Assembly (NCBI GenBank): GCA_023544645.1
Contig: JAMJFO010000021.1
Coordinates: 1 to 50,415 of the forward strand
From: Desulfobulbaceae bacterium
Lineage (GTDB): Bacteria > Desulfobacterota > Desulfobulbia > Desulfobulbales > Desulfobulbaceae
Length of the DNA: 50,415 bases
Direction of reading: 5' to 3'
Part shown: one piece after another, positions 2,047 through 47,609 of the stretch
How the letters are laid out: each line of letters opens with the position of its first letter
Position numbering within the stretch: position 1 is the first letter of the stretch
Made by a program: the position numbers and the translations under genes
Notes under the pieces: model-generated
The model's database searches: none
The model's input: only the letters and a program-made list of their open reading frames with translations
What the model was told of the DNA's origin: nothing

Positions 2047-3588
2047 GTGCTCATGAACAGTCGAACAAGTCGAAAAGAAGGGGTGTTTATCATTATCAGG
2101 CTGCAGGTATTTTTCCTCATCTTTTTTGCCGCCCTTGCCCTTCCATGTTTTGCCGGCGTCGAGCTGCCGGAGTCCGGCCCGCTTTCCCTTGAGGAGGCCA
2201 CCAGGGATCTTTTTTTGCAGCATCCGGGCAAGAGCGGCGCTTTTGTCCTGGAAAAAGGGGAAGACGCCCTGCTCACCCGTGCCTGGCTGACGGAGCGGGC
2301 CGCCAGGAGCATTGATGTGCAGTATTTTATCTGGAGCACGGATAATATCGGCATTCTGGCGGCGGAAAACCTGCTCCGCGCGGCGGAAAGGGGCACGCGG
2401 GTCCGGGTTATTGTCGATGACTTTCTGGTCGATGCCCCGGATGAAACCATGGTGGCGCTCGCGGCCCATCCCAATATTGAAATCAGGATCTACAACCCGA
2501 GAAATTCGGTGGGTATTTCAACCCCGGAAAGGGTGTTGGGGCTCATCAGCAATTTCCGCTCCTTTAACCAGCGGATGCACGATAAGACGTTTATTGTCGA
2601 CGGTCTGGTGGCGATCACCGGCGGCAGGAATATGGCCGATGAATATTTTGATTATGATCATCAATACAATTTCAGGGATCGCGATATCCTGCTCCTCGGT
2701 CCGGTGGTTGCCGACATGGAGAAAAGCTTCGAGACGTTCTGGCAGAGTGACCTGGCCGTTTCGGTGGAATCGCTCCTGGCCAGGGAAAAAAAGCGGCTGC
2801 GCAAAGAACGGGTGGCGGAGATCTACCAGGAGCTTTATATCTATGCCCTTGATCCGGAAAACTACGAACCGGCGGTGCGCCAGGCCCTCGCCGATCTCTC
2901 AGGCAGGATGGCGCAGTATGCCGAACAGCTTGTCTGGGATGATATTGTCTTTGTCTGTGACCTGCCGGGCAAGAACCTGAGTTCCGGTTTTTCCGGCAGC
3001 GGCAGATCAACGGAGATGCTGGTGGACGCGGTGAGCAAGGCCGAAAAAAGCATCACCATTCAATCGCCCTACCTGGTTATTCCCAGCGGCGGCATCGAGT
3101 TTTTTGCCAAGCTGGTAAAGAAAGGGGTGGACGTAAGGATCAACACCAACTCCCTGGCTTCCACGGATAACCTGCAGGCGTTCAGCGGCTACAGCAAACA
3201 GCGCCGGAAAATTATCAGGGCCGGGATCAAGGTGTACGAATTCCGGCCCGAACCCGCCATCCAGAAAGACCTGATCAACCGGTATGAGAGGCTGAAGCAG
3301 CATGTGCCGACTTTTGCCATCCATGCCAAAACAATGGTCATCGACAGCGAGCTTGTTTTTATCGGCACCTTCAATCTCGATCCCCGCTCCGCCAACCTCA
3401 ACACCGAGATCGGCGTTCTCATCCGCAACAGGGAGCTGGCCCGCAAGGTTGAAGAGTACATTGAAAGAGACATGCTGCCGGAAAACAGCTGGGATGCCGC
3501 TGCCGACACCCCCGACTCCCGGGCGCCCCTGTGGAAGCGGGTGCAGGTGTCGCTGCTCAAGACCCTGCCCATCCAGTCGCTGCTGTAG
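2047..3588 (+). CDS. Phospholipase D / cardiolipin synthase-family protein, exported
   Basis: A 513-residue member of the phospholipase D superfamily. Two catalytic HKD motifs are intact: HDKTFIVDGLVAITGGRN at about residue 178 and HAKTMVIDSELVFIGTFN at about residue 426. Both carry the HxK(x)4D(x)6GxxN spacing. These enzymes use a phospho-histidine intermediate for phosphodiester hydrolysis or phosphatidyl transfer. An N-terminal hydrophobic stretch ending in FAG predicts export to the periplasm. The start is uncertain: GTG 2047 has GGGGA six bases upstream, ATG 2053 is in frame, and GTG 2083 would give a more compact signal peptide. Its neighbours suggest envelope lipid work. It converges on the amidase gene with only five bases between stop codons. 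Confidence 0.85.
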   Translation: MLMNSRTSRKEGVFIIIRLQVFFLIFFAALALPCFAGVELPESGPLSLEEATRDLFLQHPGKSGAFVLEKGEDALLTRAWLTERAARSIDVQYFIWSTDNIGILAAENLLRAAERGTRVRVIVDDFLVDAPDETMVALAAHPNIEIRIYNPRNSVGISTPERVLGLISNFRSFNQRMHDKTFIVDGLVAITGGRNMADEYFDYDHQYNFRDRDILLLGPVVADMEKSFETFWQSDLAVSVESLLAREKKRLRKERVAEIYQELYIYALDPENYEPAVRQALADLSGRMAQYAEQLVWDDIVFVCDLPGKNLSSGFSGSGRSTEMLVDAVSKAEKSITIQSPYLVIPSGGIEFFAKLVKKGVDVRINTNSLASTDNLQAFSGYSKQRRKIIRAGIKVYEFRPEPAIQKDLINRYERLKQHVPTFAIHAKTMVIDSELVFIGTFNLDPRSANLNTEIGVLIRNRELARKVEEYIERDMLPENSWDAAADTPDSRAPLWKRVQVSLLKTLPIQSLL

Positions 3589-5377: not shown

Positions 5378-6913
5378 TCAGGACTCAATATACTTTTTGA
5401 CGGTCCTCCGATCAAGTTCGGTCCGTTTGGCAACGGCTTCATAGGTTCCCATTTTTTTGTACAGGACCTTGCAGTATTTTCCCAGCAACTGCTGGGCAGT
5501 AAAATCGCCCTGGACCAGCAGTTCGTTGAAGGTGTCTGATTCCGTGCTGCGTCGAAGTATTCTATCTCCCTCGTATTGTTGTTTAAGGAGAATTCTCCTG
5601 GTGCACTGCTCCAGTTCGCGCACATTGCCGGGCCACGGATAGTCGGGCGGGACCTGCCGCTTGAGGGTTTGCAGCGTATTCAGCGCCAGTTCGGGCGATG
5701 TTCTGCCGATTATCCTCCGGACGGTATGGGCAAGGAGATGGTCCAGTTCATCGGGATTTTCCTGGATGCGCTGAAAAAGCGAAGGCACGGTGATGATATC
5801 GGAGCAGAGCCGGTAGTAAAAATCGTCCCGGAAAACCTTGCGGGTCCGCAGCTCCTCGATTGAGCGGTTTGTGGCGGCAATGACCCTGCCGTAAAAACGT
5901 TGTTTTCGGTGGCTGCCCACCGGGGAGAAGATCCGGTCCTGCAGGACCTGGAGCAGTTTTATCTGCACCGGGATGGAGACTTCGCCGATTTCATCGAGAA
6001 AAATAGCCCCCGATGGGCTGCACAGGGTGAAAATGCCGGCATGGCCTTCGATTGCGCCGGTAAAAGCGCCTTTTTTGTGCCCGAACAGCTCTGATTCAAC
6101 CAGCTGTTCAGGATACTGGGAGAGATTGATGGAGATGAACACCCTGGTGAAGCTGTCGGCAAAACAGCGCTTCTTCTCGTCAAAAGGGATGTAGCCGGAC
6201 CTGCCGATTGCCGAGGCCGCGAGCCCCTTGCCGGTGCCGGTTGGCCCGAGGAGCATGGTGGAGAAGTCTTCCATCCGGTTCCAGAGGTACTGGTCATAGA
6301 TCCAGATATCGTGGGTGAAGATATTGTTCCACAGGCTGCGCCGCAGGTCTTTCATGCAGGGGCTTGTGCCCACTATCTGGTCAATGAAATAGAAGGCCCG
6401 GCGCATCTGGAAGAAGAGGGAGAAAAAGCGGACCGCTTCCTTGCGGGACACCCCCATGGAAATCATTTCTGCCAGGACGTCATCGGCAAAGCCCACCGTG
6501 CATGGTTCGTCGCCGCTGTCGATCTGCTCCCGGATATGGTGGTCGAAACGCGAACAGTACTTGTGGAACAGGTGAAAAAGGACCCCGTATTGAACCAGCT
6601 CCCGATCCTCGCCCCGGAAGTACAGAATAGGTTTGTCCGCCCCTGAACAGGTCTGGCGCAGCTTCTCCTCCACGACCCTGGTCAGCAGCTCGATCTGCTT
6701 CTCGCTGCTCAAGGGGGTTTTGGTCCTGGTGAGCTGGCTGTCCACAGCCGCCCGTTCATCACTGAAAGGATTGGCCACAATCGCCCGCCGCACCCTGGTG
6801 AAGAAATCCCTTTCCGCCGGTTGTAATTTCAGGTTCTTCATGATCAAAAATTGTACATCCGACATGCATTGAATGTCAAATTGTTCCGGAGCGTAATGGC
6901 GCCGCCCTAGCAC
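5378..6913 (-). CDS. Sigma-54-dependent transcriptional activator (enhancer-binding protein)
   Basis: A 511-residue regulator. The AAA+ domain has a Walker A GPTGTGKG (about residues 223-230), the sigma-54 contact loop GAFTGA (282-287), Walker B AIFLDEIGE and sensor/arginine motifs (VIAATNRS, FRDDFYYRL). The last 45 residues form a Fis-type helix-turn-helix (EAVAKRTELDRRTVKKYIES). The N-terminal ~200 residues are not a response-regulator receiver; I do not recognise them, so the signal is unknown. GTG 6913 has AGGA five bases upstream; ATG 6841 is an in-frame alternative. It is divergent from the VIT/VWA gene, which carries a sigma-54 promoter in the shared 112-bp gap. That gene is its most obvious target, and the lipid-fusion gene with its own sigma-54 site is the second. 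Confidence 0.92.
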   Translation of the reverse strand: MLGRRHYAPEQFDIQCMSDVQFLIMKNLKLQPAERDFFTRVRRAIVANPFSDERAAVDSQLTRTKTPLSSEKQIELLTRVVEEKLRQTCSGADKPILYFRGEDRELVQYGVLFHLFHKYCSRFDHHIREQIDSGDEPCTVGFADDVLAEMISMGVSRKEAVRFFSLFFQMRRAFYFIDQIVGTSPCMKDLRRSLWNNIFTHDIWIYDQYLWNRMEDFSTMLLGPTGTGKGLAASAIGRSGYIPFDEKKRCFADSFTRVFISINLSQYPEQLVESELFGHKKGAFTGAIEGHAGIFTLCSPSGAIFLDEIGEVSIPVQIKLLQVLQDRIFSPVGSHRKQRFYGRVIAATNRSIEELRTRKVFRDDFYYRLCSDIITVPSLFQRIQENPDELDHLLAHTVRRIIGRTSPELALNTLQTLKRQVPPDYPWPGNVRELEQCTRRILLKQQYEGDRILRRSTESDTFNELLVQGDFTAQQLLGKYCKVLYKKMGTYEAVAKRTELDRRTVKKYIES

Positions 6914-6963
6914 TTTTTCCTGAAAAATTCGGAAAATCAGCTAGTTGAAAAAGGCCAAAAAAA

Positions 6964-6979
6964 TGGCACGAGTCTGGCT
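6964..6979 (+). promoter_or_regulatory. Sigma-54 promoter upstream of the VIT/VWA gene
   Basis: TGGCACG, four bases, then TGGCT. The GG and GC dinucleotides sit exactly 12 bases apart as required, and only one base of the -12 box (consensus TTGCW) deviates. It lies 47 bases before the ATG and next to a divergent sigma-54 activator gene. Confidence 0.75.
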
Positions 6980-7025
6980 ATGGCTTGAGCATGCATCCAC
7001 GTTCAATTCAACCAGGAGAAGTATC

Positions 7026-9149
7026 ATGGAAAACAAAAAAAGCAACATCCCCAAAAGCAGCCTGTTTCGACTTGTCACTCTCTTTGCGGCAGCCTTTCTG
7101 CTGCTGGGCAGGGGAGGCCCCGCTGCCGAAGCCGCGGGCCTGCTCGTCGCCGATGGCGGTTTCGGCGGCGTACTCGAAATTGTCGAACATGACGTTCAGG
7201 TAACAATTAACAATGGCATTGCGGTGACCCAGGTCAACCAGGTTTTTCTCAATAAGGAAAACCGGCAGGTTGAAGCCCTGTATACCTTCCCGGTGCCGAA
7301 GGGAGCCTCTGTTTCCAACTTCAGCATGTGGATCAATGGCAAAGAGATGGTGGGCGAGGTGGTGGAAAAGAAGCGGGCCCGGGAAATCTACAACAGCTAC
7401 AAGCAGCAGAGAAGGGATCCGGGCCTGCTGGAACAGACAAGTTACAAGACCTTTGAAATGCGGATATTCCCCATAGCGCCCAAGGCCGAACAGCGGGTGC
7501 AGGTCACCTATTACCAGGAACTTGATTTCGACCATGACTGGGCGACCTACGTGTACCCCCTGGCAACCACGACCAGGGCCCAGGTAGACAACCGGGTGAG
7601 CGGCCGCTTCAGCGTGTCGGCAAACATCAAATCGGTTGTTCCGATCACCGCTGTGCAGAGCCCCAGTCATGGAGACGCATTCCTGGTGGTCAACCATACC
7701 GACAACTACCATGAGGCAAGCCTGGAAAACCGTGACGGCGATCTTGCCCGTGACGTTGTGCTTGCCCTGCAGGTGACCCGGCCGGTCACCGGAATGGATA
7801 TGCTGACATCGAAAACCGACGGCGAGGACGGTTACTTTGCCCTTACCTTAACGGCGGGCAAGGATCTTGAGAAAATTCAGACAGGCGGTGACTATGTCTT
7901 CATTCTCGACATCTCCGGCAGTATGGCCAATGGGGGAAAGCTCAATACATCGGTTCATTCCCTGGAGGCCTTCATCAAGGGCCTGGGACCTGACGACAGG
8001 TTTGAGGTCATCACCTTCAACAAGAGGCCGAACACCCTGTTCAATCAGTTGATGGATGCGGAAGAAGGCAATATCGCCAGAGCGGTTTCCTTTCTCAACT
8101 CCCAGGAGGCGCGCGGCGGCACCTCGCTGCAGCCGGCCATTGCGACCGCGTACAAGTACGGAACCGATGACCGCCCCTTGAACACGGTGATCCTGAGCGA
8201 CGGCATTACCGAGCAGGACGAGCGGCGCGTGCTCATGGATATGATTCAGTCGCGTCCGGCCAATGTCCGGGTATTCTGCATAGGTGTGGGCAACGACATC
8301 AACAGGTCCCTTCTCCGGCAGATGGCCGAAGATGCCGGCGGACTGGCCGCCTTTCTTTCCCGCGGGGATGACTTTGAGCGCCAGGCCAAGGCATTTCGCC
8401 GCAAACTCATGCACCCGGTGGCAACCAACCTGCAGATACGTGTTTCGGGAATCGACGTGTACGACGTTGAACCGGAGAAACTGCCCAATCTGTATCACGG
8501 CATGCCGGTGAGGATGTACGGCCGGTACAAGGGAAAAGGGGATGGACAGGTGGACGTCACCGCCGAAGTCAATGGGCGGCAAATTGCGACAACCGCGGAG
8601 CTCTCCTTTCCCGGCCGGAACGATGACAATCCGGAGATTGAGCGCATGTGGGCCTGGCACCGGATGGAGCGGTTGAAACGCAGGCACGAAATGAACAGCA
8701 ATCCAGCGCTTGTTGATGAAATAGTGCGTCTGGGCGAAGGATATTCAATCACCAGTGAATACACCTCGTTCCTGGTTCTGGAAAATGACGCCGAATACAA
8801 ACGCTGGAAGATTGAACGGCGCAATGCCTCGCGTATTGAACGCGACAGAAGCGCCCAGCTGCGTGTGCGCCGGGAACTGGAAGCGCTCCGCACAAAGGCG
8901 ATGAGCGAGATCGGCCCGGTGGAGAACATCAGCCCGGCCCAGGTCAAGCCGGCTCCGGTTGTGGCGCAGGCGCCCCGCAGGCCGGCCCCGCAAGCGCCTG
9001 CGCAGGCTTCGCCCCAGAATGCTCCTGAGCGCTCGCGCAGTTTTGATATGCCGCGATTCAGCGGCGGCGGCGCTATGGACCCGGTGAGTGCGCTCATCGG
9101 CATCGCCCTTGGCGGCGGCGCGCTTTTTGGCCGGAAAAAGAAAAAGTAG
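7026..9149 (+). CDS. VIT/VWA-domain exported protein with GlyGly-CTERM-like sorting tail
   Basis: A 707-residue protein with a signal peptide (FRLVTLFAAAFLLLG, cleavage near AEAAG). A VIT domain spans about residues 45-170 (TQVNQVFLNKENRQVEALYT, FPVPKGASVSNFSMWINGK). A VWA domain follows with the metal-site motif DISGSMANGG at about residue 295. A Pro/Ala-rich linker leads to the last 29 residues: SGGG, a hydrophobic segment and the basic end GRKKKK. That layout (glycines, membrane helix, basic cluster) is that of GlyGly-CTERM tails, which rhombosortases cut. A rhombosortase-like gene follows. VIT/VWA proteins are also the known targets of the proteobacterial dedicated sortase systems. The start at 7026 follows AGGAG. 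A sigma-54 promoter lies upstream and a MITE separates it from the rhomboid gene. Confidence 0.9.
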   Translation: MENKKSNIPKSSLFRLVTLFAAAFLLLGRGGPAAEAAGLLVADGGFGGVLEIVEHDVQVTINNGIAVTQVNQVFLNKENRQVEALYTFPVPKGASVSNFSMWINGKEMVGEVVEKKRAREIYNSYKQQRRDPGLLEQTSYKTFEMRIFPIAPKAEQRVQVTYYQELDFDHDWATYVYPLATTTRAQVDNRVSGRFSVSANIKSVVPITAVQSPSHGDAFLVVNHTDNYHEASLENRDGDLARDVVLALQVTRPVTGMDMLTSKTDGEDGYFALTLTAGKDLEKIQTGGDYVFILDISGSMANGGKLNTSVHSLEAFIKGLGPDDRFEVITFNKRPNTLFNQLMDAEEGNIARAVSFLNSQEARGGTSLQPAIATAYKYGTDDRPLNTVILSDGITEQDERRVLMDMIQSRPANVRVFCIGVGNDINRSLLRQMAEDAGGLAAFLSRGDDFERQAKAFRRKLMHPVATNLQIRVSGIDVYDVEPEKLPNLYHGMPVRMYGRYKGKGDGQVDVTAEVNGRQIATTAELSFPGRNDDNPEIERMWAWHRMERLKRRHEMNSNPALVDEIVRLGEGYSITSEYTSFLVLENDAEYKRWKIERRNASRIERDRSAQLRVRRELEALRTKAMSEIGPVENISPAQVKPAPVVAQAPRRPAPQAPAQASPQNAPERSRSFDMPRFSGGGAMDPVSALIGIALGGGALFGRKKKK

Positions 9150-9180
9150 CCTGAAGGCCGGACAACAGGCCGAGACGGTC

Positions 9181-9256
9181 GGGGTGAGGGGGCAGGGCTC
9201 CGGGAGCTGGTTTTTCCTTGCCCCTCATCCCGGCCTTCTCCCGCGCGGGGAGAAGG
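9181..9256. repeat. Nested GC-rich inverted repeats downstream of the VIT/VWA gene
   Basis: The arm at 9181-9196 (GGGGTGAGGGGGCAGG) pairs with 9216-9232 (CCTTGCCCCTCATCCCG). A second perfect hairpin, CCTTCTCC/GGAGAAGG, lies at 9234-9256. The second resembles the common CCCTCTCCC/GGGAGAGGG intergenic palindromes; another such copy is at 14997-15018. It may stop or slow transcription, but has no T-run. Confidence 0.6.
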
Positions 9257-9326
9257 AGTGGAAAAAATTGCTCCTGCCGGAACCAGATACATCATGGTGC
9301 GGGTCAATACCAATGCGGGTTAAGTA

Positions 9327-9485
9327 GTGTCCATCCAGAAACGGTCTTTTTGCCCGATCTCTGCGTTATGCTCAAAAAATTATCCTCGGAATATCACACA
9401 TATGCCTGCGGTAATTTTTTTCGCATGCCTCGGAGTCTGGCGCTTACCTGACCTCGAACAAAAATCCTCGTTTCTGGATGGACAC
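9327..9485. mobile_element. MITE family B, full-length copy
   Basis: A 159-bp element with terminal inverted repeats GTGTCCATCCAGAAACG, flanked on both sides by TA (TA/GTGTCC ... GGACAC/TA), the target duplication typical of IS630/Tc1-mariner elements. It has no coding capacity. A related copy, inverted and internally deleted, is at 47525-47609. Shared internal sequence includes CTTACCTGACCTCGAAC. Confidence 0.85.
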
Positions 9486-9519
9486 TAAGTGGTAATCACA
9501 AATTGATTAAGGTGCAGCA

Positions 9520-10194
9520 ATGAAATCATGCAAAACCAGCTTCGTCAGTTTCGGATCAAGACTGCCGGTTATCTCCATCTCCGTGGCACTCCTGTCGCTG
9601 CTGTTGTATTTCCGCAGCGATATTGCCCCGTACCTGCAATATGACCGCGTATTGATTGCCGATGGCCAGTTGTGGCGGCTCATTACCGGCCATTTTACCC
9701 ACTGGTCCTTTGACCATTTCCTCTGGTGCACCATAACCTTTATTGCCCTGGGGAGTATTTGCGAGCAGCTCAACAGGAAGGGATTTGTCATTTCGCTTGG
9801 TGCATCGGCATTCATCATCCCTGTTGTCAGCTGGCTTGCTGATCCCGGGATGCTTTTGTACCGGGGCCTGTCCGGCATCTGTTCAAGTGTTTTTATCGTC
9901 GGGGCAATGCTGATGATGCGAAAGGCGTTTGTTGACAGGGACTGGGCGAATCTGATTCTTCCCGCTGCCGCCGGTTTTCTTTTCTTCGGCAAAATTGTTT
10001 ACGAGTTCATCAGCGGCCAGGCCCTGTTCGTCCACAGCAGCGACATGTTTTCCCCGGTGCCGCTGGCGCATCTCGTGGGGGGCGTCATCGGTTTGCTGAC
10101 CGCAGCCTTTGTGGTTGTCAAGACCCGGAAGGGAGCCATTTACCCCGCTAGAGGGAAAGATCTCTCACGTACGCTCGAGATGTGCATAAAATGA
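9520..10194 (+). CDS. Rhomboid-family intramembrane serine protease, rhombosortase-like
   Basis: A 224-residue multi-spanning inner-membrane protein. The rhomboid dyad is intact: serine in YRGLSGI (about residue 118, GxSG) and histidine in PLAHLVGGVIG (about residue 184). The loop-1 motif LITGHFTHWSFDHFLW matches the short rhombosortase group, which cleaves GlyGly-CTERM tails. The gene directly upstream carries such a tail, supporting an enzyme/substrate pair. ATG 9520 has AAGGTG seven bases upstream. Its last ~17 residues (YPARGKDLSRTLEMCIK) are encoded by a repeat family C sequence, so the natural C-terminus may have been replaced. The stop codon lies inside a terminator hairpin. A generic rhomboid protease is the alternative. 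Confidence 0.82.
   Translation: MKSCKTSFVSFGSRLPVISISVALLSLLLYFRSDIAPYLQYDRVLIADGQLWRLITGHFTHWSFDHFLWCTITFIALGSICEQLNRKGFVISLGASAFIIPVVSWLADPGMLLYRGLSGICSSVFIVGAMLMMRKAFVDRDWANLILPAAAGFLFFGKIVYEFISGQALFVHSSDMFSPVPLAHLVGGVIGLLTAAFVVVKTRKGAIYPARGKDLSRTLEMCIK
10149..10182. repeat. Repeat family C, partial copy at the 3' end of the rhomboid gene
   Basis: AGAGGGAAAGATCTCTCAC followed by CGAGATG is shared with the copies at 15981-16050 and 16105-16174 (GGGAAAGATCTCTCACC ... TTCGAGATGACA). Here it lies in frame inside the coding sequence and supplies the C-terminal residues. Confidence 0.6.
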
Positions 10195-10226
10195 ATATTG
10201 TTTAAGCATTTTATGCACATCTTTTT
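10179..10226 (+). terminator. Intrinsic terminator of the rhomboid gene
   Basis: GATGTGCATAAAATG (10179-10193) and CATTTTATGCACATC (10207-10221) form a perfect 15-bp stem followed by TTTTT. The left arm overlaps the last codons of the rhomboid gene. Confidence 0.85.
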
Positions 10227-10316
10227 GTTTGATCATTGTTGTGCCGCAGCTCCGTGGGCAGGTAAAAATAAACAATATCAGCTAATTAGAAAGAATAATC
10301 CGCTGCGCCGGCGATT

Positions 10317-10332
10317 TGGCACGGAGTGTGCT
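10317..10332 (+). promoter_or_regulatory. Sigma-54 promoter upstream of the lipid-fusion gene
   Basis: TGGCACG, four bases, then GTGCT, with GG and GC 12 bases apart. The -24 box is perfect and the -12 box has one change, the same T-to-G class of deviation as in the VIT/VWA promoter. It lies 55 bases before the ATG at 10388. Confidence 0.7.
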
Positions 10333-10387
10333 TTTGGTAGGGCACATCACCAGGCATTTCAGAAAAATCACAAGGATCGAGGAAAAG

Positions 10388-13300
10388 ATGAAAACGAAAT
10401 CCAGCACCACAACCCATACGACCGGGGGCGACCGAACTTTTGCGGCCATGGCAGCCTCCTACTCCCTTGGCGTTTTCAACGACAATTTCTTTAAACAGGC
10501 TGCCCTGCTCCTTGCTATCGGGGCCGGCCTGACCCATTTGCAGGGGACTGCCACCATGGTTTTTGCCCTGCCGTTCATCCTTTGTTCGGCTTATGCCGGC
10601 TGGCTGGCTGACCGGTTTCCCAAGAAAAATATCGTGGTCAACGGCAAGGCTCTCGAGTTTGTTGCCATGCTTGTCGGGGCGGTGGGGATTATTACGATGA
10701 ACTGGTTCTGGATTATTGCCATGCTATTTCTCATGGGCCTGCAATCGGCAATTTTCGGACCGGCCCTCAACGGCTCTATTCCGGAACACTTTCCCGCCGA
10801 TAAAATTACCCGCATCAACGGCAGATTGAAAATGTTTACGACTCTGGGGATCCTCATCGGGATTGCCTGCGCCGGTATCGCCCTGGATTTTCGCTCGCCG
10901 GTATTTGCTGAGGTGCCCGCGGGGCAGATCCTGATTGCCTGTACGGTCATACTCATTTCCGCTGCCGGTCTCATCGCAAGCCTGGGGATAACTAAATATC
11001 AGGCTGCCGCGCCTGATAAACCCTTTCCATGGGCCGGACCGTTTCATTCGCTGCGCGATGTGTTCGCCCTCAGAAAAGATCCCCTCCTCCTCCTGGCAGT
11101 GCTCAGTGACGCTTTCTTCTATTTTCTCGCCGCGCTCGTTGTCCTGATCATCAATACCTACGGAATCGATCAGCTCGGTCTTTCCCGAACCGTTACCAGC
11201 ATGATGAGCGTCGCGCTCATGGTCGGGGTATCCCTTGGCGCTGTTTTCGCTTCCCGGATCGCCGACACCACAAACTGGACAAAAGTGCTTCTGCCGGGAA
11301 CATCCGGCATGGCCGCCGGACTTGCCGCGGCTGCCCTGTCTGTTTACGTTCCCGAAGAGCACAGGGTTGCCGCCCTTTTTGCATCATTTATCCTGACCGG
11401 GTTCTGCGGCGGTTTTTTTCTTATTCCGATCACCAGTTTTATCCAGGTGCGCCCGAAGGATTCGGACAAAGGCCAGGTCATTGCCGTTGTCGGATTCTGC
11501 TCGTTCATCGGCATCCTGCTGGCGGGCCGGGTATATACTGTTCTGGATGGACTGATGGCGCCCGGAACCATGCTGTTCTGCACAGGCCTGGCAAGTTTTG
11601 GCGCCGCGCTCATCCTCATGGTGCTGCTGCGGTGGAACAGCGCGGTTGTCCGAAACATCCTTCACCTGGTGATTCGCAGCCTGCTCCGGCTTCGCTATGA
11701 TATTGAGGTTGCCGGGTTGGAAAAGGTCGAAAAATCGAACAACGGCAGGGGAATCCTGTTCCTGCCCAACCATCCGGCATGGATCGATCCGGTGATCATC
11801 ATGACCATCCTGCACAGGAAGTTTCAACCACGGCCGCTTGCCGATTATGAGGAAACGAACAAATGGTATATCCGGCCGCTGATGCGACTGGTCCATGCCA
11901 TCAGGATTCCCAGCCTGGCTAAAAACGGCCGCGGGTCCAAAGATGAAATCACCAACGGCATCAACAGGGTTGCGGCCAGCCTGCGGGCGGGCGACAATGT
12001 AATCCTGTATCCGGCCGGAAGGCTGTATCGCTCGATGTATGAACAGCTTGGGGCCAAGAGCGCCGTGCATACCATCCTGGCAGAAAACCCCGGGCAGCGG
12101 ATCGTACTGGTCAGAACCGGCGGGCTGTGGGGCAGCAGTTTCAGCTGGGCTGACGGCTCCCCCCGCCTGTCCCGACGATGGAAAACCTATCTTTCCTTCG
12201 CCCTGGCCAATTGCCTGTTCTTTGGGCCCCGGCGTAAAGTTACCGTCGAGCTGGCGGAGCCGGTAGATTTTCCGCGCCACGATGACCGGATTACCATTAA
12301 TCAGGCACTGGAGCAATTTTATAATGTTGACGCGCTGCCCAACCTGCGGGTGCCCTATTTCTGGTGGCAGGGAAGTAATCCCATTGCCAGGCCGGACCCG
12401 GAAGATCAGGCTGTAGCGCGTGACCTTGCCAACGTGCCTGAATCGATAAAAACACAGGTGAAGGAGCACCTCCAGGAAGTTAACAAAATCACGGCCGTTG
12501 CCATGGAGGATAAACTGGCCGGGGATATCGGCATGGACAGCCTCGCACTCATGGAACTGGCCGCCTGGCTGGAAAAAGAATTCGGCATGCCCGTTGAAGA
12601 CCTGGAATCCATCCGGACGGTCGGCGATGTGGCGCTTGCTGCCTGCGGCCAGGGCATGGGAACCGGGGAAGAGAACAAACAGGCCGTTCATCCCGCGTGG
12701 TTCTGGGGTGATGCCCGAAAAGATCTCGCGCTGAGCGGGACTGAGTCCATCTGCCAGGCCTTTTTGCGCAAAGCAAAGGCCCACCCTGACAAAGCCATTG
12801 TTGCCGACCGGATCAGCGGCGTGAAAACCTATCGCCAGTTTGTCATGGCGACCATGATCCTGCAGAAGAAATTGGGCGCCATTGACAGCCCGAATCTGGG
12901 GATCATGCTTCCCGCGTCGGTGAGCGCCTCGCTCTGTTACTTTGCGGCCCTGTTTGCCGAAAAGACCCCGGTAATGCTCAACTGGACCGTTGGCGTCAGC
13001 CATATGAAACACTGTCTTAAAACCGCGGGTGTCACGCATGTTGTTACCGCTAAGGCGCTGGTGGATAAGCTGCGCGGGCAGGGCGTTGATCTGGCGCCCC
13101 TGGATGTTGAATGGATCTATCTTGAGGAGATGCGAAAACAGATCACAGTGGTTGATAAGGCAAAGGCAGTGATCGCCGGGTACACTTCCTGGTCATCACT
13201 GGCCAAAAGCAGGGCAGGCGATACCGCGGCCATTCTTTTTACCAGCGGATCCGAGGCCCGGCCCAAAGCCGTTCCCTTGAGCCACGCCAATATCCTTGCA

Positions 13301-14266
13301 AATCTGGAGGATTTCAACGCGGTTCTGTCTTTCAGGGAAAGCGACCGGCTCCTGGGTATGCTGCCGCCATTTCATTCGCTGGGCCTGGCCGGCAATATTA
13401 TCATGCCCCTGTGCCTCGGCCTCAAAACGACATATCATGCCAATCCGACCGAAGGCGGGATCCTGGCCAATCTCATAGAGCAGTACCGGTCCACGCTGCT
13501 CATCGGCACACCTACTTTTGTCAACAACATTCTCCGGGCGGCGAAACCCGATCAGCTTTCTTCCCTGCGTCTACTGTTCACCGGCGCTGAAAAATGCCCT
13601 GAATATGTGTACCGCCGCGTAAGGGAAGAACTGCCCGGCGCCGTTCTGTGCGAAGGATACGGCATCACCGAATGCTCGCCGGTGGTCAGCGTCAATACCC
13701 CTGCCGATCCTGTGCCGGAAACCATTGGCCGGATACTGCCGGGCATGGAGTACGCGATTGTCGATCCGGACAGCATGGATGCGGTTGAACCCGGCCGGCA
13801 GGGAATTCTTCTGGTGCGGGGCAGGAACGTTTTTTCCGGATACCTGGGCGTTGACGCTGCTTCGCCGTTTGTCGTCCATGACCACAGGAGCTGGTATAAT
13901 ACCGGGGACCTGGTTCGTGAGGACAGCAGTGGACTCCTTACCTTTTGCGGACGGCTGAAACGGTTCATCAAGCTCGGCGGCGAAATGATCTCCCTGCCGG
14001 CCATCGAGGCCGTTCTCCAGCAGCATTTTCCGGCCAATGAAGACGGCGATCCCGCCCTGGCCATCGAGGCCACCAGTGATGAGAGCCATCCGGAAGTCGT
14101 TCTTTTCACCACGTTGAGCATCGACCGGGAAGAAGTGAACGGGTGCATCCGCAAGGCGGGACTCTCCGCCCTGCACAATATCCGGCGTTTAGTGCGGATC
14201 CAGGCCATTCCCGTCCTCGGCACCGGCAAGATCAATTACCGTCAACTCAAGGCTGCTCTGGCATAA
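10388..14266 (+). CDS. MFS lysophospholipid transporter / PlsC acyltransferase / ACP / acyl-ACP ligase fusion
   Basis: A 1292-residue four-part protein. Residues ~15-420 are an MFS transporter like LplT, which flips lysophospholipids inward. Residues ~440-660 are a PlsC-type acyltransferase with the NHPAWIDP motif (HX4D, His ~462). Residues ~690-765 are an acyl-carrier domain with the phosphopantetheine serine in GMDSLALMEL (~718). Residues ~775-1290 are an AMP-forming acyl ligase (AAILFTSGSEARPK near 949, then EGYGITECSPV). In E. coli, LplT and Aas together re-acylate lyso-phosphatidylethanolamine; an MFS-Aas fusion is known, but a built-in carrier domain is not the usual plan. ATG 10388 follows GAGGAAAAG; an upstream start at 10316 would cover the sigma-54 promoter. 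A phosphatidyltransferase gene follows. Confidence 0.9.
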   Translation: MKTKSSTTTHTTGGDRTFAAMAASYSLGVFNDNFFKQAALLLAIGAGLTHLQGTATMVFALPFILCSAYAGWLADRFPKKNIVVNGKALEFVAMLVGAVGIITMNWFWIIAMLFLMGLQSAIFGPALNGSIPEHFPADKITRINGRLKMFTTLGILIGIACAGIALDFRSPVFAEVPAGQILIACTVILISAAGLIASLGITKYQAAAPDKPFPWAGPFHSLRDVFALRKDPLLLLAVLSDAFFYFLAALVVLIINTYGIDQLGLSRTVTSMMSVALMVGVSLGAVFASRIADTTNWTKVLLPGTSGMAAGLAAAALSVYVPEEHRVAALFASFILTGFCGGFFLIPITSFIQVRPKDSDKGQVIAVVGFCSFIGILLAGRVYTVLDGLMAPGTMLFCTGLASFGAALILMVLLRWNSAVVRNILHLVIRSLLRLRYDIEVAGLEKVEKSNNGRGILFLPNHPAWIDPVIIMTILHRKFQPRPLADYEETNKWYIRPLMRLVHAIRIPSLAKNGRGSKDEITNGINRVAASLRAGDNVILYPAGRLYRSMYEQLGAKSAVHTILAENPGQRIVLVRTGGLWGSSFSWADGSPRLSRRWKTYLSFALANCLFFGPRRKVTVELAEPVDFPRHDDRITINQALEQFYNVDALPNLRVPYFWWQGSNPIARPDPEDQAVARDLANVPESIKTQVKEHLQEVNKITAVAMEDKLAGDIGMDSLALMELAAWLEKEFGMPVEDLESIRTVGDVALAACGQGMGTGEENKQAVHPAWFWGDARKDLALSGTESICQAFLRKAKAHPDKAIVADRISGVKTYRQFVMATMILQKKLGAIDSPNLGIMLPASVSASLCYFAALFAEKTPVMLNWTVGVSHMKHCLKTAGVTHVVTAKALVDKLRGQGVDLAPLDVEWIYLEEMRKQITVVDKAKAVIAGYTSWSSLAKSRAGDTAAILFTSGSEARPKAVPLSHANILANLEDFNAVLSFRESDRLLGMLPPFHSLGLAGNIIMPLCLGLKTTYHANPTEGGILANLIEQYRSTLLIGTPTFVNNILRAAKPDQLSSLRLLFTGAEKCPEYVYRRVREELPGAVLCEGYGITECSPVVSVNTPADPVPETIGRILPGMEYAIVDPDSMDAVEPGRQGILLVRGRNVFSGYLGVDAASPFVVHDHRSWYNTGDLVREDSSGLLTFCGRLKRFIKLGGEMISLPAIEAVLQQHFPANEDGDPALAIEATSDESHPEVVLFTTLSIDREEVNGCIRKAGLSALHNIRRLVRIQAIPVLGTGKINYRQLKAALA

Positions 14267-14292
14267 TTCAGGATACTGACATGGAGGAAATC

Positions 14293-14979
14293 ATGAATAT
14301 TCAAGCGCATAACAGTACGAAGGCATTTGCGGGCGACAAAAAGGTCGGCAAATCACTGTTGACCCGGCCGGAAAATAAACTGAAACAGTGGCTGATCCCC
14401 GGAATTCCCCGGACCATTGAAACATACCATCTTACCATGGGGACTCTGGTGTGGTCCGCTGTCAATATTTTGATCGCATTTCATGTCCGCGATAATCCCG
14501 CCCTGCTGTGGGGAGTTTCGCTGATGATCGTCCTGCAGTATCTGACGGATCTCCTGGACGGGGAGCTGGGCAGGCAGCGGGAGACCGGACTTGTCAAGTG
14601 GGGGTTTTACATGGACCATTTCCTCGACTTTCTCTTCCTGTGCTCCCTGGTTTTTGTCGGGTACATGCTGGCTCCGGGCGGGACAGAGGCGTGGTGTTTT
14701 GCTCTGCTGGTAATCCTGGCTGCGTTTATGGTCAATTCGTTTCTCTCCTTCGGCGCTACAAACGAGTTTGAGATATATCATTACGGTTTCGGCCCCACTG
14801 AAATGCGGGTGGTCTTTATCCTCATCAATACCTTCCTGATTCAATTCGGCACGGCAAATCTTGACCTATTGATTCCGGCAACGGTGGGGATATGCCTGGC
14901 AGGATTGGTCATCCAGAGCTATCAGATTCATAGAAAGCTGTGGAATCATGATATGCGGGTGAAAAACGCAACAATGTAA
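14293..14979 (+). CDS. CDP-alcohol phosphatidyltransferase family membrane protein
   Basis: A 228-residue multi-spanning membrane protein with the CDP-alcohol phosphatidyltransferase signature D-x2-DG-x2-(A/G)R-x9-G-x3-D-x3-D, seen as DLLDGELGR, then GFYMDHFLD. The usual alanine of the AR pair is glycine; all metal-binding aspartates are kept. Such enzymes move a phosphatidyl or phospho-alcohol group from a CDP-linked donor to an alcohol. The acceptor cannot be told. ATG 14293 has GGAGG at 14283-14287; ATG 14281 in the same frame is the alternative. It begins 26 bases after the lipid-fusion stop and is very probably in the same sigma-54-driven transcript. Confidence 0.85.
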   Translation: MNIQAHNSTKAFAGDKKVGKSLLTRPENKLKQWLIPGIPRTIETYHLTMGTLVWSAVNILIAFHVRDNPALLWGVSLMIVLQYLTDLLDGELGRQRETGLVKWGFYMDHFLDFLFLCSLVFVGYMLAPGGTEAWCFALLVILAAFMVNSFLSFGATNEFEIYHYGFGPTEMRVVFILINTFLIQFGTANLDLLIPATVGICLAGLVIQSYQIHRKLWNHDMRVKNATM

Positions 14980-16593: not shown

Positions 16594-16800
16594 CCCGCAT
16601 TTTTCACAAGGGTTGTCGCGAGAAGCCGTAAAGTGACGTGGATGCCGATAGCGAGCCTTGCGGGACCTTCGAGGCCCTGAACCGAAAACACTCGCAGACA
16701 TACTGGACGTATGTCGAGAATGTTTTCGGTGCTGAAACGCAGTGGGCATGGTGCTTTACGGTTTCGCAGTCCCGACGTGTCGGGATGAGAAATGCGGGTT
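16594..16800. mobile_element. Palindromic element family A, long copy (MITE-like)
   Basis: The ends CCCGCATTTTTCACAAGGG and GATGAGAAATGCGGG are inverted. The first ~34 bases match the short copy at 392-443 inverted, including GTTGTCGCGAGAAG. Inside are two further nested inverted repeats: CCGTAAAG/CTTTACGG and CCGAAAACA/TGTTTTCGG around a GACATAC/GTATGTC core. There is no coding content of its own, but its right end supplies the last codons of the SGNH gene and its left end borders the broken gene at 16403-16593. Confidence 0.75.
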
Positions 16801-18009
16801 AAATACATGCTTCTGGAGCAGGGGAAGCAGCTCCTCGACAAAGACCTGGTGTCCTCTGGGGTTGAAATGCCCGTCATATTTATAGTAGAGGGGCTTATTT
16901 ACTGATTGGCGGCGGAATCTTTCGGTGACCGAAAGGAAAGGGATACCAACGGCGGCGCATATTTTTTTCAGCTCTTCGTCCGGTATGGTGGTGTGGAGCA
17001 TTTCGGGATGGGTGGTAAACCCTATTTCTTTTCTGCCCTTCCAAACGTCCTCGCTCACATACGCCCCAAGGGGCATGCTCACCACGATGACCGGAGCTCC
17101 ACCGGCAAATTTTTTTATGTTCTGCAGATGGTCCTGCAGTTTCCGCAGACCATCCCGCACCAGAGGCTCTTCTGTCTGCAGCGGGGTGGCAAAGTAGTGC
17201 GGATCAGATATGGCCATGCTCACAATGCCCGGGTTGAGATGGCCCTTGAGGAACATGTCTCTTGCTGTGGAGCCCATTGCATCAAAACGTGCCTTTCCTT
17301 CCCCCCGATAGCCGGCAGCTAGTTTTTCCGCCTGGCTTTGCCAGATTTTTTCCAGCAGGCGGTCCCTGGACCTGAAGGTTGATCCGCCGGCCAGGTGGTG
17401 ACCAATGAGGCGGGAGGTATGCGGATAAAGGAATCGGGCGGTCCAGTCGAGCCCCCCGGCGATGCGGCTGAAGGGGGATGTTTTTTGTTGTTCCCGGTTT
17501 TGTCGGACCTGGCGGATTGTCTGGGCAAGGTCGTCCCCCTGCAGGATGGCGACAAGGATTATGTCGGGCTTGAGAAGGGGTATGGCTTTTTCGGCGACTT
17601 CGGCATACTCGGAGGGGCTGGCGCCGGGCCTGCCGAGATTGGCGATCTCAAGATCAAACCCCTGGGCCCGGAGCCGCTGTTCCAGGATTTTGGGCCAGGT
17701 CTGGTCCAGTTCGGCTCCCATGCCGAAGGTGAATGAATCCCCGATGGCCAGAATCCGTGTGGTTGAACTGTTTTTTTCTCTATTCCATTCGCGGTCGCGG
17801 AATCCGAGCGAGTTGATCCTGGCTCTGTGGGAGAATTCAGGGGTCTGGTAGGGGAATTCAGAGCCGGGCGGGAAAAGAAGGCCCTGGGCGGATGTCCTGT
17901 CGGCAAATCGGGGCAGAACAAGGCGGTCGGCAAGACATGTGAGCCCAACAAAAATTATTAATGAGGCAAGGATCGACACGACCTTGAGTGTGGTGCTGGA
18001 ACTCTTCAC
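16756..18009 (-). CDS. SGNH/GDSL-family hydrolase, membrane-anchored, with element-derived C-terminus
   Basis: A 417-residue protein with an N-terminal membrane anchor (VVSILASLIIFVGLTCLAD) and an SGNH domain. Seen: block I serine in ILAIGDSFTFGMG, the block II glycine in IANLGRPGASPSEY, and the Asp-His pair in YYKYDGHFNPRGHQVF. Such proteins are usually esterases or acetyltransferase-like enzymes acting on envelope polysaccharides; the substrate is unknown. The last 15 residues (FNPHFSSRHVGTAKP) and the stop lie inside repeat element A, so the original end is replaced. The catalytic residues precede that point, so the enzyme may still work. The start is GTG at 18009 with only a weak GGGAAA upstream. 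Confidence 0.82.
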   Translation of the reverse strand: MKSSSTTLKVVSILASLIIFVGLTCLADRLVLPRFADRTSAQGLLFPPGSEFPYQTPEFSHRARINSLGFRDREWNREKNSSTTRILAIGDSFTFGMGAELDQTWPKILEQRLRAQGFDLEIANLGRPGASPSEYAEVAEKAIPLLKPDIILVAILQGDDLAQTIRQVRQNREQQKTSPFSRIAGGLDWTARFLYPHTSRLIGHHLAGGSTFRSRDRLLEKIWQSQAEKLAAGYRGEGKARFDAMGSTARDMFLKGHLNPGIVSMAISDPHYFATPLQTEEPLVRDGLRKLQDHLQNIKKFAGGAPVIVVSMPLGAYVSEDVWKGRKEIGFTTHPEMLHTTIPDEELKKICAAVGIPFLSVTERFRRQSVNKPLYYKYDGHFNPRGHQVFVEELLPLLQKHVFNPHFSSRHVGTAKP

Positions 18010-18272: not shown

Positions 18273-19190
18273 CTAGCTTTGTGTTTTTGCAGGGAGGTTG
18301 TGCGGATCCATGTGGCAGTCCAGGCAGTTGGTAAATCGCTTGTGCAGCTCTCCGCCGTGCGGTTCGCCATGACAGTCCCGGCAGGTGGTTATCTCTCCAT
18401 GTGTGGGGTGACAGGTCGCGCACTGCAGGGCGGAGTGTTTGGTCACATTGGTCTGCAAATTGGAGTGCACGGTTTCGTGACACGCGCCGCAGGCTATGTT
18501 GGGAACTTCCTCGGGATATGCCTTGATGTCCGCGGCGCTGTGCGGCGAATGGCAAAGGAGGCAGTCCTTGTACTCCTGCTGCTTCATATGCGGGTCGTGA
18601 CAGTCCAGGCAACTGGGGATGGCTCCATGGACCTCGGCATGACACCCCTGGCAGTTGACCTCGGTGTTATGTTTGCTGGGAAGCCTGGCAAACTCGGCGC
18701 CTTCGTTCTTGTGGCAGACACTGCATGTGACAACGCCTTCCTGGCCCGGTACGGCTTTATCCAGTTTGTCAAACTGGATAACCTTGGGAGCATGGGGTTG
18801 CTGATGGCACTCCATGCATGCCGGGAAATCCTTGCCATGGGGAAGATCATGGCAGTCCTGACACTTGGGCATGATCTCGTCCCAATTGCCCTTTCTCGGG
18901 TTGTAGGTATGGAATTGCTCATGACAGGTGGTGCAGTCGAACTGATGTTTGCCGCCCTTGTCCTGCAGCCATTTGAACTGATAGTTGTGGCACCTGCCGC
19001 ACTCTACCGGAGTGAGCGGCTCGATTTCCATTGCATAGATCCCTGATGGTCCGGAGTCCTGCTCCTGTTTTTTGGCGGCGCTGCTTTCCGGCCCGCCGGT
19101 GTTGCCGGCGGGGCCACAGGCAGTCAGCAGAAAACACAGGCCAACCGCACAGATCGATGAAGGGACAAAGGTAGAATAATAGTTCTTCAT
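18273..19190 (-). CDS. Dodecahaem c-type cytochrome, lipoprotein
   Basis: A 305-residue protein with twelve CxxCH haem-binding motifs (in order CGRCH, CTTCH, CQDCH, CMECH, CSVCH, CQGCH, CLDCH, CLLCH, CGACH, CATCH, CRDCH, CLDCH). The leader ends in the lipobox LTAC-G, so it should be lipid-anchored, on either membrane. Many histidines follow the motifs (CHDLPHG, CHDPHMKQQ, CHGEPHG) and could be the distal ligands. It is clearly related to the upstream cytochrome: same motif order in the C-terminal half, with CLDCH-PHMKQQ in both. No partner reductase lies nearby, so the donor and acceptor are unknown. Role: periplasmic or outer-surface electron transfer. Confidence 0.9.
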   Translation of the reverse strand: MKNYYSTFVPSSICAVGLCFLLTACGPAGNTGGPESSAAKKQEQDSGPSGIYAMEIEPLTPVECGRCHNYQFKWLQDKGGKHQFDCTTCHEQFHTYNPRKGNWDEIMPKCQDCHDLPHGKDFPACMECHQQPHAPKVIQFDKLDKAVPGQEGVVTCSVCHKNEGAEFARLPSKHNTEVNCQGCHAEVHGAIPSCLDCHDPHMKQQEYKDCLLCHSPHSAADIKAYPEEVPNIACGACHETVHSNLQTNVTKHSALQCATCHPTHGEITTCRDCHGEPHGGELHKRFTNCLDCHMDPHNLPAKTQS

Positions 19191-19205
19191 ATCTGCCCTC
19201 TTTTT

Positions 19206-20009
19206 TTATTTGAGCAGGCTATGCGCGCTCTGGTGACACTGGTTACACCCTTCGAATTTGCTCAGCATCTGTTGGTTGTGCGGTTCACCATGACATTCCT
19301 GGCACTGCGGAACAACCCCGTGTTTGCTGGCATGGCAGAATACACAATCAAATCCGGCATGCTTGGACGCCCCGGATTCAAGTGTGGTTTTGATGTCGTC
19401 ATGACAGGCCCCGCACTCACTGTTGGGAATATCGGTGCCGTAGGCAAGCGTCAGGGGCTGGTGAACCTGGTGGCATTTGACGCAATCGTCGAATGTCTGT
19501 TGTTTCATGTGCGGTTCGTGGCAGTCCAGGCAGTCCGGCTTGTAGCCGTGCTTGTCATGGCAGTACGAACAGTCGACTTCGGCATGGGCGCTTGGGGCGG
19601 CGTTGACCTCGTCGACAACATTTGAATGGCAGGTGTTGCAGGCAGCTTTTACTTCACCTTGAAAGGTTATGTTAAGAGGTTGATGGGGGTTGGTGTGGCA
19701 GCCGAGACAGTTCTCAAGCGAAAAGTGGGGCTCACCCTCATGACAGGTTGAACAGTTGGGAATCAGCGTTCCTTTTTCCACTCCGGGAGGATGGGTTCCG
19801 TCATGACAGGTCAGACAGGTGACCTCTGTTTTATGCTTGGCTCCAGCCTCATCAACCTGCTGAACAAAAGTGATATGACATTTCTGACAGTCGTCATCAT
19901 TGAGTTTGACATCTCCAGACGCGGCAGCGGCAAGCTGGGCATCAGTCATCAGGCCGGCAGTGACAAAACAGAGAAGCGCCGCCGCAGCAAACAGAAATGA
20001 TTTTTTCAT
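19206..20009 (-). CDS. Dodecahaem c-type cytochrome, periplasmic
   Basis: A 267-residue protein with a cleavable signal peptide (MKKSFLFAAAALLCFV, cleavage near AAAA) and twelve CxxCH motifs: CQKCH, CLTCH, CSTCH, CLGCH, CNTCH, CSYCH, CLDCH, CVKCH, CGACH, CVFCH, CQECH, CNQCH. The start at 20009 follows a GGGGGGA; an upstream in-frame ATG at 20048 would give a poorer leader. It lies 15 bases before the second cytochrome gene, and a terminator follows the pair, so the two form an operon and look like an old tandem duplication. One copy is soluble and the other lipid-anchored, which suggests a relay from periplasm to membrane. Confidence 0.9.
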   Translation of the reverse strand: MKKSFLFAAAALLCFVTAGLMTDAQLAAAASGDVKLNDDDCQKCHITFVQQVDEAGAKHKTEVTCLTCHDGTHPPGVEKGTLIPNCSTCHEGEPHFSLENCLGCHTNPHQPLNITFQGEVKAACNTCHSNVVDEVNAAPSAHAEVDCSYCHDKHGYKPDCLDCHEPHMKQQTFDDCVKCHQVHQPLTLAYGTDIPNSECGACHDDIKTTLESGASKHAGFDCVFCHASKHGVVPQCQECHGEPHNQQMLSKFEGCNQCHQSAHSLLK

Positions 20010-20044
20010 AATTTTCCCCCCTAACTCATTAATTCTCAAGTTTA

Positions 20045-20269
20045 TCAAGCTGATCCGACCGCCGGATAACCTGTACGCAGCGGCCTGGATTGTTTATATC
20101 GTCGCAGTTGTCCATTTGGGATCGACACCTGGACCGTCTGGCGTTCCAGGCAGATAACCAACTGTTCTTCCGTGTTGAATGCCATGCCCGGCAAGCTGGT
20201 GTTTGCAACGTTTTCTCTTTCGGGCACTCTGCCAGCTTTATATTCACAACGTTCTATCGTTTTTAACAT
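20045..20269 (-). CDS. Possible small protein upstream of the cytochromes, unrecognised
   Basis: A 74-codon open frame on the same strand as the cytochrome genes, ending 35 bases before the first of them. The product has a central stretch resembling a folded beta segment (EEQLVICLERQTVQVSIPNG) and no haem motif. There is no clear ribosome-binding site before the ATG at 20269. It may be a real short gene in the cytochrome operon or merely an open leader. I do not recognise it. Confidence 0.3.
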   Translation of the reverse strand: MLKTIERCEYKAGRVPERENVANTSLPGMAFNTEEQLVICLERQTVQVSIPNGQLRRYKQSRPLRTGYPAVGSA

Positions 20270-47524: not shown

Positions 47525-47609
47525 GTGTCCATCCAGAAACGAGGATTTTTGTTCGAGGTCAGGTAAGCGAGCCTGCGACACTCCGAAAAGACCGTTTCTG
47601 GACGGGCAC
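47525..47609. mobile_element. MITE family B, deleted copy
   Basis: 85 bp from GTGTCCATCCAGAAACG to CGTTTCTGGACGGGCAC, flanked by TA on both sides. It is the inverse of the element at 9327-9485 with about 70 internal bases missing. Confidence 0.85.

Follow-up and report, generated by a model that had tools for sequence, protein, structure and literature searches.

The closest described systems to the locus reported here are the dedicated pairs of Haft and Varghese (2011; PMC3237569), in which one target with a GlyGly-CTERM tail lies beside one rhombosortase gene. In the accessible text of that paper, the legend of Figure 3C includes VIT/VWA homologues with GlyGly-CTERM tails, single targets often adjoin the rhombosortase (Table 3 includes deltaproteobacterial, planctomycete and verrucomicrobial genomes), and genomes with several targets had none adjoining the rhombosortase gene; the same text does not state which of the adjacent targets are VIT/VWA proteins. 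In Vibrio cholerae, the rhombosortase RssP cleaves VesB at the GlyGly tail, and the C-terminus so produced bears ethanolamine or glycerophosphoethanolamine, possibly phosphatidylethanolamine (PE) (PMC6219818). VIT/VWA proteins with a sorting enzyme of their own are also found in the proteobacterial dedicated sortase systems (TIGR03788, LPXTG) and in exosortase K systems. Lyso-phospholipids are handled in E. coli by LplT, which flips them, and Aas, which re-acylates them; PMC11416262 also mentions fused forms, whose function is uncharacterised. Here we analysed a locus in a 50,415-bp stretch of contig JAMJFO010000021.1 from a Desulfobulbaceae bacterium (the window, meaning the whole stretch), in which a VIT/VWA gene and a rhombosortase gene stand with a sigma-54 enhancer-binding protein (EBP, the activator) and several phospholipid genes. 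We consider it probable that this is a sigma-54-controlled envelope module, with a rhombosortase dedicated to one VIT/VWA target, and that the activator family, which is also found beside phospholipid-remodelling genes, here probably drives them. The features are the following.

2047..3588, plus strand: PLD-superfamily protein (cardiolipin-synthase-like) with two HKD motifs; PF13091, 125 bits
3594..5195, minus strand: C92 permuted papain-like amidase (YiiX-like), adjoining the activator gene; PF05708, 55.8 bits against a cut-off of 27
5378..6913, minus strand: sigma-54 EBP; PF00158, 140.8 bits; GAFTGA at residue 282
6964..6979, plus strand: sigma-54 -24/-12 promoter-like site TGGCACGAGTCTGGCT ahead of the VIT/VWA gene; 11 of 12 consensus positions
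7026..9149, plus strand: VIT/VWA surface protein, presumed rhombosortase target; PF08487 (VIT), 116.7 bits; PF13768 (VWA_3), 73 bits
9063..9146, plus strand: C-terminal sorting signal GGGAMDP-hydrophobic-GRKKKK (GGGAxDP type), from the alignment of tails
9520..10194, plus strand: rhombosortase; TIGR03902, 99.3 bits against a cut-off of 84; GLSG and AHxxGG
10178..10222, undirected: perfect inverted repeat (16 bp) running into T-rich DNA across the rhombosortase stop, a candidate transcript end
10317..10332, plus strand: sigma-54 -24/-12 promoter-like site TGGCACGGAGTGTGCT ahead of the fusion gene; 11 of 12 consensus positions
10388..14266, plus strand: fusion of LplT-like MFS, PlsC acyltransferase, acyl carrier protein (ACP) and acyl-ACP ligase; PF07690, PF01553, PF00550, PF00501
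14143..14979, plus strand (limits of the open reading frame, ORF): CDP-alcohol phosphatidyltransferase; PF01066 (CDP-OH_P_transf), 32.2 bits against 22

The locus shares with the published pairs the single target beside a single rhombosortase and the VIT/VWA homologues with GlyGly-CTERM tails. Its activator and lipid partners are new; the text of PMC3237569 nowhere uses the words sigma-54, phospholipid or lipid. In addition, TIGR03501, the GlyGly-CTERM model, picked up neither kind of tail found here (GGGAxDP, GPVGP) in the proteins scanned. New features are an activator of one family at the pair, matched promoters, a repeated partnership with lipid genes and a match between tail and enzyme clade; the pairing of a GlyGly-tailed target with a rhombosortase was already known. 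A literature search returned no co-mention of rhombosortase with sigma54, of rhombosortase with lysophospholipid or of VIT domain with sigma-54, and none of the co-mentions of rhombosortase with acyltransferase, or of rhomboid protease with PlsC, concerned such a link, as judged by title and the start of the abstract. With RssP/VesB the locus shares the rhombosortase family and a glycine-ended tail that would here too be cut and receive an ethanolamine-containing group; type II secretion would be common to both as well. RssP differs in having many targets, and no lipid genes are described in the available excerpt of PMC6219818.

The five genes named in the initial annotation (the EBP, the divergent VIT/VWA protein, a rhomboid with intact Ser/His, the four-part fusion and the CDP-alcohol phosphatidyltransferase) were all verified with curated models and with motif checks. 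The rhomboid falls within the rhombosortase family, and its Ser118 and His184 are kept in all seven aligned sequences. The fusion is a single ORF whose MFS_1, PlsC-type acyltransferase, PP-binding (ACP; residues 714-773) and AMP-binding domains are all over the Pfam cut-offs, with NHxxxxD and the ACP DSL motif intact; it scores 715.6 with NF006386 (acyl-ACP--phospholipid O-acyltransferase PRK08633), under the equivalog cut-off of 1221. Flippase, acyltransferase and acyl-ACP synthetase domains are shared with E. coli LplT/Aas (PMC11416262), whereas the window protein is one chain with an ACP domain and a sigma-54-like promoter, beside an activator and a rhombosortase locus. The CDP-alcohol phosphatidyltransferase has its catalytic motif and probably starts near 14290. 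The PLD gene, the C92 amidase gene and a second copy of the locus were absent from that annotation, and the first two are additional candidate partners; for the window PLD protein the closest curated model is cardiolipin synthase, with a score under that model's cut-off.

Promoter statistics support the proposed sigma-54 control of the VIT/VWA gene. Sites were scored with GG and GC fixed and a threshold of at least 10 of 12 consensus positions, in the 77 distinct activator-target regions left after discarding duplicates and any piece that contained N or was shorter than 100 bases. Sites facing the target were found in 29 of these regions; the reverse orientation gave 1 of 77, and shuffles a mean of 2.5 (largest 5). 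By target, they lay ahead of 25/54 VIT/VWA genes, 2/3 hydrolase-fusion units, the single diverged fusion (L069) and 1/19 LplT genes. In the whole window, both strands included, only two sites reach 11 of 12, and they are the ones ahead of the VIT/VWA and fusion genes. An alternative VIT/VWA ORF opens at TTG 6945 and runs over the promoter site, which makes ATG 7026 the likelier start. Furthermore, a site of at least 10 precedes the fusion in six of the eight distinct loci where it accompanies a rhombosortase (the window, L048, L050, L058, L244 and L212; absent in L258 and L083). The upstreams of rhombosortase genes show no excess (3 forward and 3 reverse of 85), which fits co-transcription with the VIT/VWA gene. 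No clear excess (forward/reverse) was seen for the C92 genes (2/0 of 6), the hydrolase genes (2/0 of 10) or the ceramidase-like genes (0/0 of 6).

The EBP itself probably starts at ATG 6841 or 6862. Family alignment and structure prediction (pLDDT 85.7) describe its N-terminal domain as all-helical with an NPF motif; a Foldseek search with this model returned no match at E<=0.001, and the best VIA-align Z score obtained with it, the model being helical, was 5.3. One sub-branch of the activator (L204, L205, L206, L207 and L208) has neither VIT/VWA nor detected lipid genes nearby.

The VIT/VWA protein appears from its sequence to bear a Sec signal peptide, and ends in SGGGAMDPVSALIGIALGGGALFGRKKKK, laid out as SGGG-AMDPVSALIGIALGGGALF-GRKKKK in agreement with the first description. 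Sequence and tail alignment place this end within the tripartite GlyGly-CTERM layout of glycine-rich motif, hydrophobic helix and basic end. That part of the GlyGly-CTERM assignment stood; the model did not bear it out, as TIGR03501 gave the window protein no match at E<=1, and we file the tail as a GlyGly-CTERM-like variant. Over nine genomes, TIGR03501 had two matches in the window's genome, both elsewhere and neither reaching the cut-off, and the single protein over the cut-off was a VIT/VWA protein adjoining a rhombosortase in genome G008, whose tail in the whole-protein scan scored 14.3, slightly under the cut-off of 15.5. Two tail types were found among relatives, GGGAxDP and GPVGP-like, and TIGR03501 reported neither kind in the proteins scanned; the two alignments built for them (16 and 12 tails) were chosen by type, so their invariance is partly due to choice. 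When a GGGAxDP profile was run over twelve genomes, five of them yielded strong matches (six in all, E<=1.6e-12), every one a VIT/VWA end, which argues for a dedicated system in those five genomes; five weak matches (E 0.04-0.1) fell in G079 and G132. In the window's genome, matches at E<=0.1 were confined to two VIT/VWA copies.

The tail type also tracks the clade of the enzyme. Among 71 loci with an adjacent enzyme, GGGAxDP tails go with clade 1 in 40 and GPVGP-like tails with clade 2 in 20; the exceptions are five GPVGP-like tails with low-scoring clade-1 enzymes, and six tails fit neither pattern (three SPVGP or APVGP with clade 2, three with clade 1). Clade-2 enzymes straddle the TIGR03902 cut-off: the six tested range from 75.8 to 89.6 bits, and three exceed 84. 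Additionally, a rhombosortase adjoins a 280-residue protein with a TGGGSLD tail in place of a VIT/VWA protein in genome G025 (L054:6972-8443).

The core of the system is widespread. In a scan of named genomes, the best 80 of 125 VIT/VWA relatives were kept as loci, which by record title are desulfobacterial, planctomycete, verrucomicrobial, hydrogenedentote, nitrospirote and other. The rhombosortase adjoins the VIT/VWA gene in 69 of the 73 loci with enough downstream DNA, and a divergent activator of one family lies upstream in 47 of the 66 with enough upstream DNA.

Within the order, the same activator family repeatedly meets lipid genes. The survey covered 257 genomes with detection models built from the fetched loci, so that counts favour close relatives and distant lipid genes may be missed; VIT/VWA relatives were found in 19 genomes, the activator in 50 (57 places), the rhombosortase in 24 (E<=1e-16) and fusion matches, many of them lone ligases, in 121. 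Within 6 kb of the 57 activator places, a phospholipid gene occurs at 35 (LplT near 30), a VIT/VWA gene at 13 and both at 7. The activator adjoins LplT/PlsC/ligase genes in many genomes with no local rhombosortase, and in L231 it lies next to a run of PLD, CdsA-like and PlsC genes. The idea that the lipid fusion requires a rhombosortase was rejected, given the many genomes in which the fusion accompanies just the activator.

These distributions give room to another explanation, which we hold at somewhat under even chances: a single envelope-stress regulator that senses membrane damage and has two independent outputs, the fusion repairing lyso-lipids and the VIT/VWA protein acting as a separate surface defence or adhesion protein, with no shared lipid intermediate. 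Lipid genes without VIT/VWA at 28 of the 57 places, and the reverse within 6 kb at 6, speak for it, as do the named-genome loci, most of which have activator and VIT/VWA without lipid genes; those loci were reached via VIT/VWA and lipid-only cases were not sought. LplT/Aas is moreover described as shielding E. coli against phospholipase damage (PMC11416262). A quick activator tree counts in favour of the envelope module: in it the state switches eight times between VIT/VWA-linked and lipid-only. The tree omits four of the 57 places (G013, G046, G048a, G075) and adds 23 activators from the 80 named-genome loci, which are VIT/VWA-linked by construction. G006 and G051 are labelled there as having both partners although the distance from activator to lipid genes is about 7 kb or the two are on different contigs. 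Two independent outputs would leave unexplained a fusion of rhombosortase with PlsC, described below, as well as the PLD genes at VIT/VWA-rhombosortase pairs where no activator was detected in the fetched stretch (L209, L214).

Lipid genes are also linked to the pair itself. Among 18 VIT/VWA-rhombosortase loci in 16 genomes of the order, a PLD gene lies within 6 kb in 8, with 0.25 expected from per-genome PLD counts (G094 and G096 were assessed for PLD genes only, with approximate VWA limits), and at least 11 have some phospholipid gene near (PLD, LplT/PlsC, ceramidase-like or CDP-alcohol). Gene orders vary. L244 and L258 have activator, VIT/VWA, rhombosortase and fusion; L170 has VIT/VWA, rhombosortase, activator and PLD; L209 and L225 have a PLD gene divergent from VIT/VWA; and L083 has VIT/VWA, rhombosortase, LplT-PlsC and hydrolase. 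In L228, an uninterrupted 532-residue ORF joins a rhombosortase (89.6 bits) to a PlsC acyltransferase (29.3 bits against 23). A search of 395 genomes of the phylum established no second such fusion, the matches listed covering one half or the other except in G491, where an internal stop is present and the match ends just inside the PlsC part; G165, the source of the fusion, was not among the matches listed and evidently lies outside that sample. A neighbourhood conserved together with lipid genes, the check proposed in the initial annotation, was found in several lineages of the order, the rhombosortase-PlsC fusion included; outside the order the lipid genes were mostly not found in the fetched DNA. 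Two of the outcomes that the initial annotation named as refuting it, no co-occurrence in relatives and a rhomboid outside the rhombosortase clade, were thus looked for and did not arise.

This recurrence makes it very improbable, and indeed already disfavoured, that the lipid genes are simply chance neighbours hitch-hiking in one clade. The CDP-alcohol enzyme accompanies the locus in close relatives only and four other ORFs intervene in G006, both as hitch-hiking would predict, but the pairing recurs in several genera in different orders, the promoters in the window are matched and PLD genes are enriched. Moreover, in seven genomes of the window's genus, VIT/VWA, activator, rhombosortase and fusion are all present in two and all absent from five at the search thresholds.

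The same evidence bears on direct biochemical coupling, the model of the initial annotation, in which the phospholipid joined by the rhombosortase to the VIT/VWA protein would be made, repaired or recycled by the lipid enzymes. The rhombosortase-PlsC fusion points that way, as do the same-strand arrays of L244, L258 and L083 and the glycerophosphoethanolamine-type group on VesB (PMC6219818). Transfer to the amine of PE would yield no lyso-PE, however, so re-acylation would have no obvious need; lipid genes are not nearby at most named-genome rhombosortase loci; and intact lipid was not seen on VesB (PMC6219818). We regard direct coupling as unlikely, and rank the co-regulated module above it because the joining reaction would itself make no lyso-lipid.

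Several observations weigh against the co-regulated module in turn. Lipid genes were found in just 5 of the 80 named-genome loci (L058, L059, L061, L069 and L083), in flanks of at most 10 kb and often less, where distant lipid genes may escape the models; L059 and L061 are the G006 and G035 loci already counted in the order, L058 is titled Desulforudis yet is closest to the window, and L069 and L083 are titled Proteobacteria and Desulfobacteraceae. Because most VIT/VWA-rhombosortase loci outside the order show no lipid genes in the fetched DNA, these seem unneeded for anchoring. At 16 of the 57 activator places neither partner was found (3 of the 16 have less than 150 bases of contig upstream), and in G006 the four intervening ORFs separate the fusion from the VIT/VWA-rhombosortase pair. 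Separate LplT genes divergent from the activator show a site of at least 10 in just the one case of 19 (10/44 for LplT upstreams in general), so that for lipid-only loci the link to the activator is chiefly one of position, and PLD genes have a sigma-54 site in 0/8 forward and 1/8 reverse. The P value of the PLD enrichment (3e-11) assumes independence and is too small since the loci are related, and the rhombosortase-PlsC fusion was observed once. Lastly, the fusion and the VIT/VWA-rhombosortase pair look like separate transcription units in the window; as the perfect inverted repeat spans the rhombosortase stop, the fusion probably belongs to the same regulon but is transcribed separately (the repeat was not called in a terminator scan that permits loops of 3-8 only).

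What the sequences indicate, then, is a gene set with a genuine rhombosortase, matched tails and enzymes, two -24/-12 sites and repeated co-localisation; this supports a shared regulon and suggests that surface anchoring and membrane-lipid remodelling are part of one programme, in which the lipid genes might also supply or recycle the anchor. In the co-regulated module, the activator would open the sigma-54 promoters in response to a cue that acts on its N-terminal domain. The VIT/VWA protein would be exported via Sec, and its tail helix would keep it in the inner membrane until the rhombosortase cuts after the glycines (GGG|AMDP), and the new C-terminus would be joined to an amine-bearing, PE-like phospholipid, by analogy with RssP/VesB. 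The anchored protein could then be moved to the surface; a gene for a GspD-type secretin is over the cut-off in the window's genome (G000) and in 10 of the 12 genomes tested. Meanwhile, the fusion protein would flip lyso-phospholipids and re-acylate them by means of its built-in ACP, and phospholipids would be adjusted by the remaining lipid enzymes, including the PLD-family and CDP-alcohol ones. The most likely purpose is to maintain or rebuild the envelope while a lipid-anchored VIT/VWA coat goes on.

A bolder and considerably less probable extension is the making and remodelling of a bacterial anchor resembling glycosylphosphatidylinositol (GPI), in which the rhombosortase would join the VIT/VWA protein to a phospholipid, resident enzymes would edit, re-acylate or release the protein-bound lipid, and one sigma-54 activator would switch on the whole. 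Acyl chains could be put on by PlsC and the fusion and taken off by two enzymes found in relatives, the alpha/beta hydrolase and the ceramidase-like protein. Either the C92 papain-like amidase or the PLD-family enzyme could free the anchored protein, much as Atg4 cuts Atg8-PE. The hydrolases were considered as relatives of PGAP1, a GPI-remodelling protein, and rejected (three tested, a weak match in two and a match barely over the cut-off in the third, at 26.9 against 24.3). The ceramidase-like genes were likewise rejected as Per1 relatives: both tested match PF05875 over the cut-off, with no Per1 match listed at E<=1. The PGAP1/Per1 likeness is kept solely as an analogy.

Loci with a rhombosortase beside or fused to phospholipid enzymes point to concrete candidates for the chemistry of the anchor and its provision, and the conserved activator and promoters offer a handle to switch the system on. 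Furthermore, the two tail types matched to two clades extend the likely rhombosortase signals beyond the current tail model.

Unrelated sorting enzymes distinguish the dedicated sortase and exosortase K systems from this locus. With TIGR03788 (marine proteobacterial sortase target) the window VIT/VWA protein scores 262.8 against a cut-off of 551.65, and it has no LPXTG. Exosortase K or Q-like pairs do occur in relatives of the window: in L055, L056, L057 and L210, VIT/VWA proteins with PEP-type tails adjoin exosortases, which are exosortase K over the cut-off in L055, L057 and L210 and Q-like, under the cut-off, in L056. In L210 a lipid fusion lies about 1 kb from the VIT/VWA protein and exosortase K, and the fusion may therefore follow VIT/VWA proteins regardless of the sorting enzyme.

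In the window's assembly (G000) the locus is present once more in diverged form, on contigs C127 and C19 (L048, L049), with 80% identity to the window in the VWA protein and 75-78% in the fusion, and this second copy may be a paralogue or come from a binned second strain. It carries C92, PLD, ceramidase-like and CDP-alcohol genes. C92 homologues stand beside the activator also in L048, L219/L060 and L220, and homologues of the CDP-alcohol enzyme come after a ceramidase-like gene in L049, L050, L058 and L169. Between the VIT/VWA and rhombosortase genes of the window lies a 163-bp MITE-like element (9325-9487) with perfect 19-bp terminal inverted repeats, whose 14-bp core is absent from the second locus copy (L048) and recurs at 47528-47541. 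On the opposite strand, 3' of the locus, a GDSL-lipase-like protein is encoded at 16756-18009(-), which no test ties to the system, and two multihaem cytochrome c7/c3-type proteins are encoded at 18273-20048(-).

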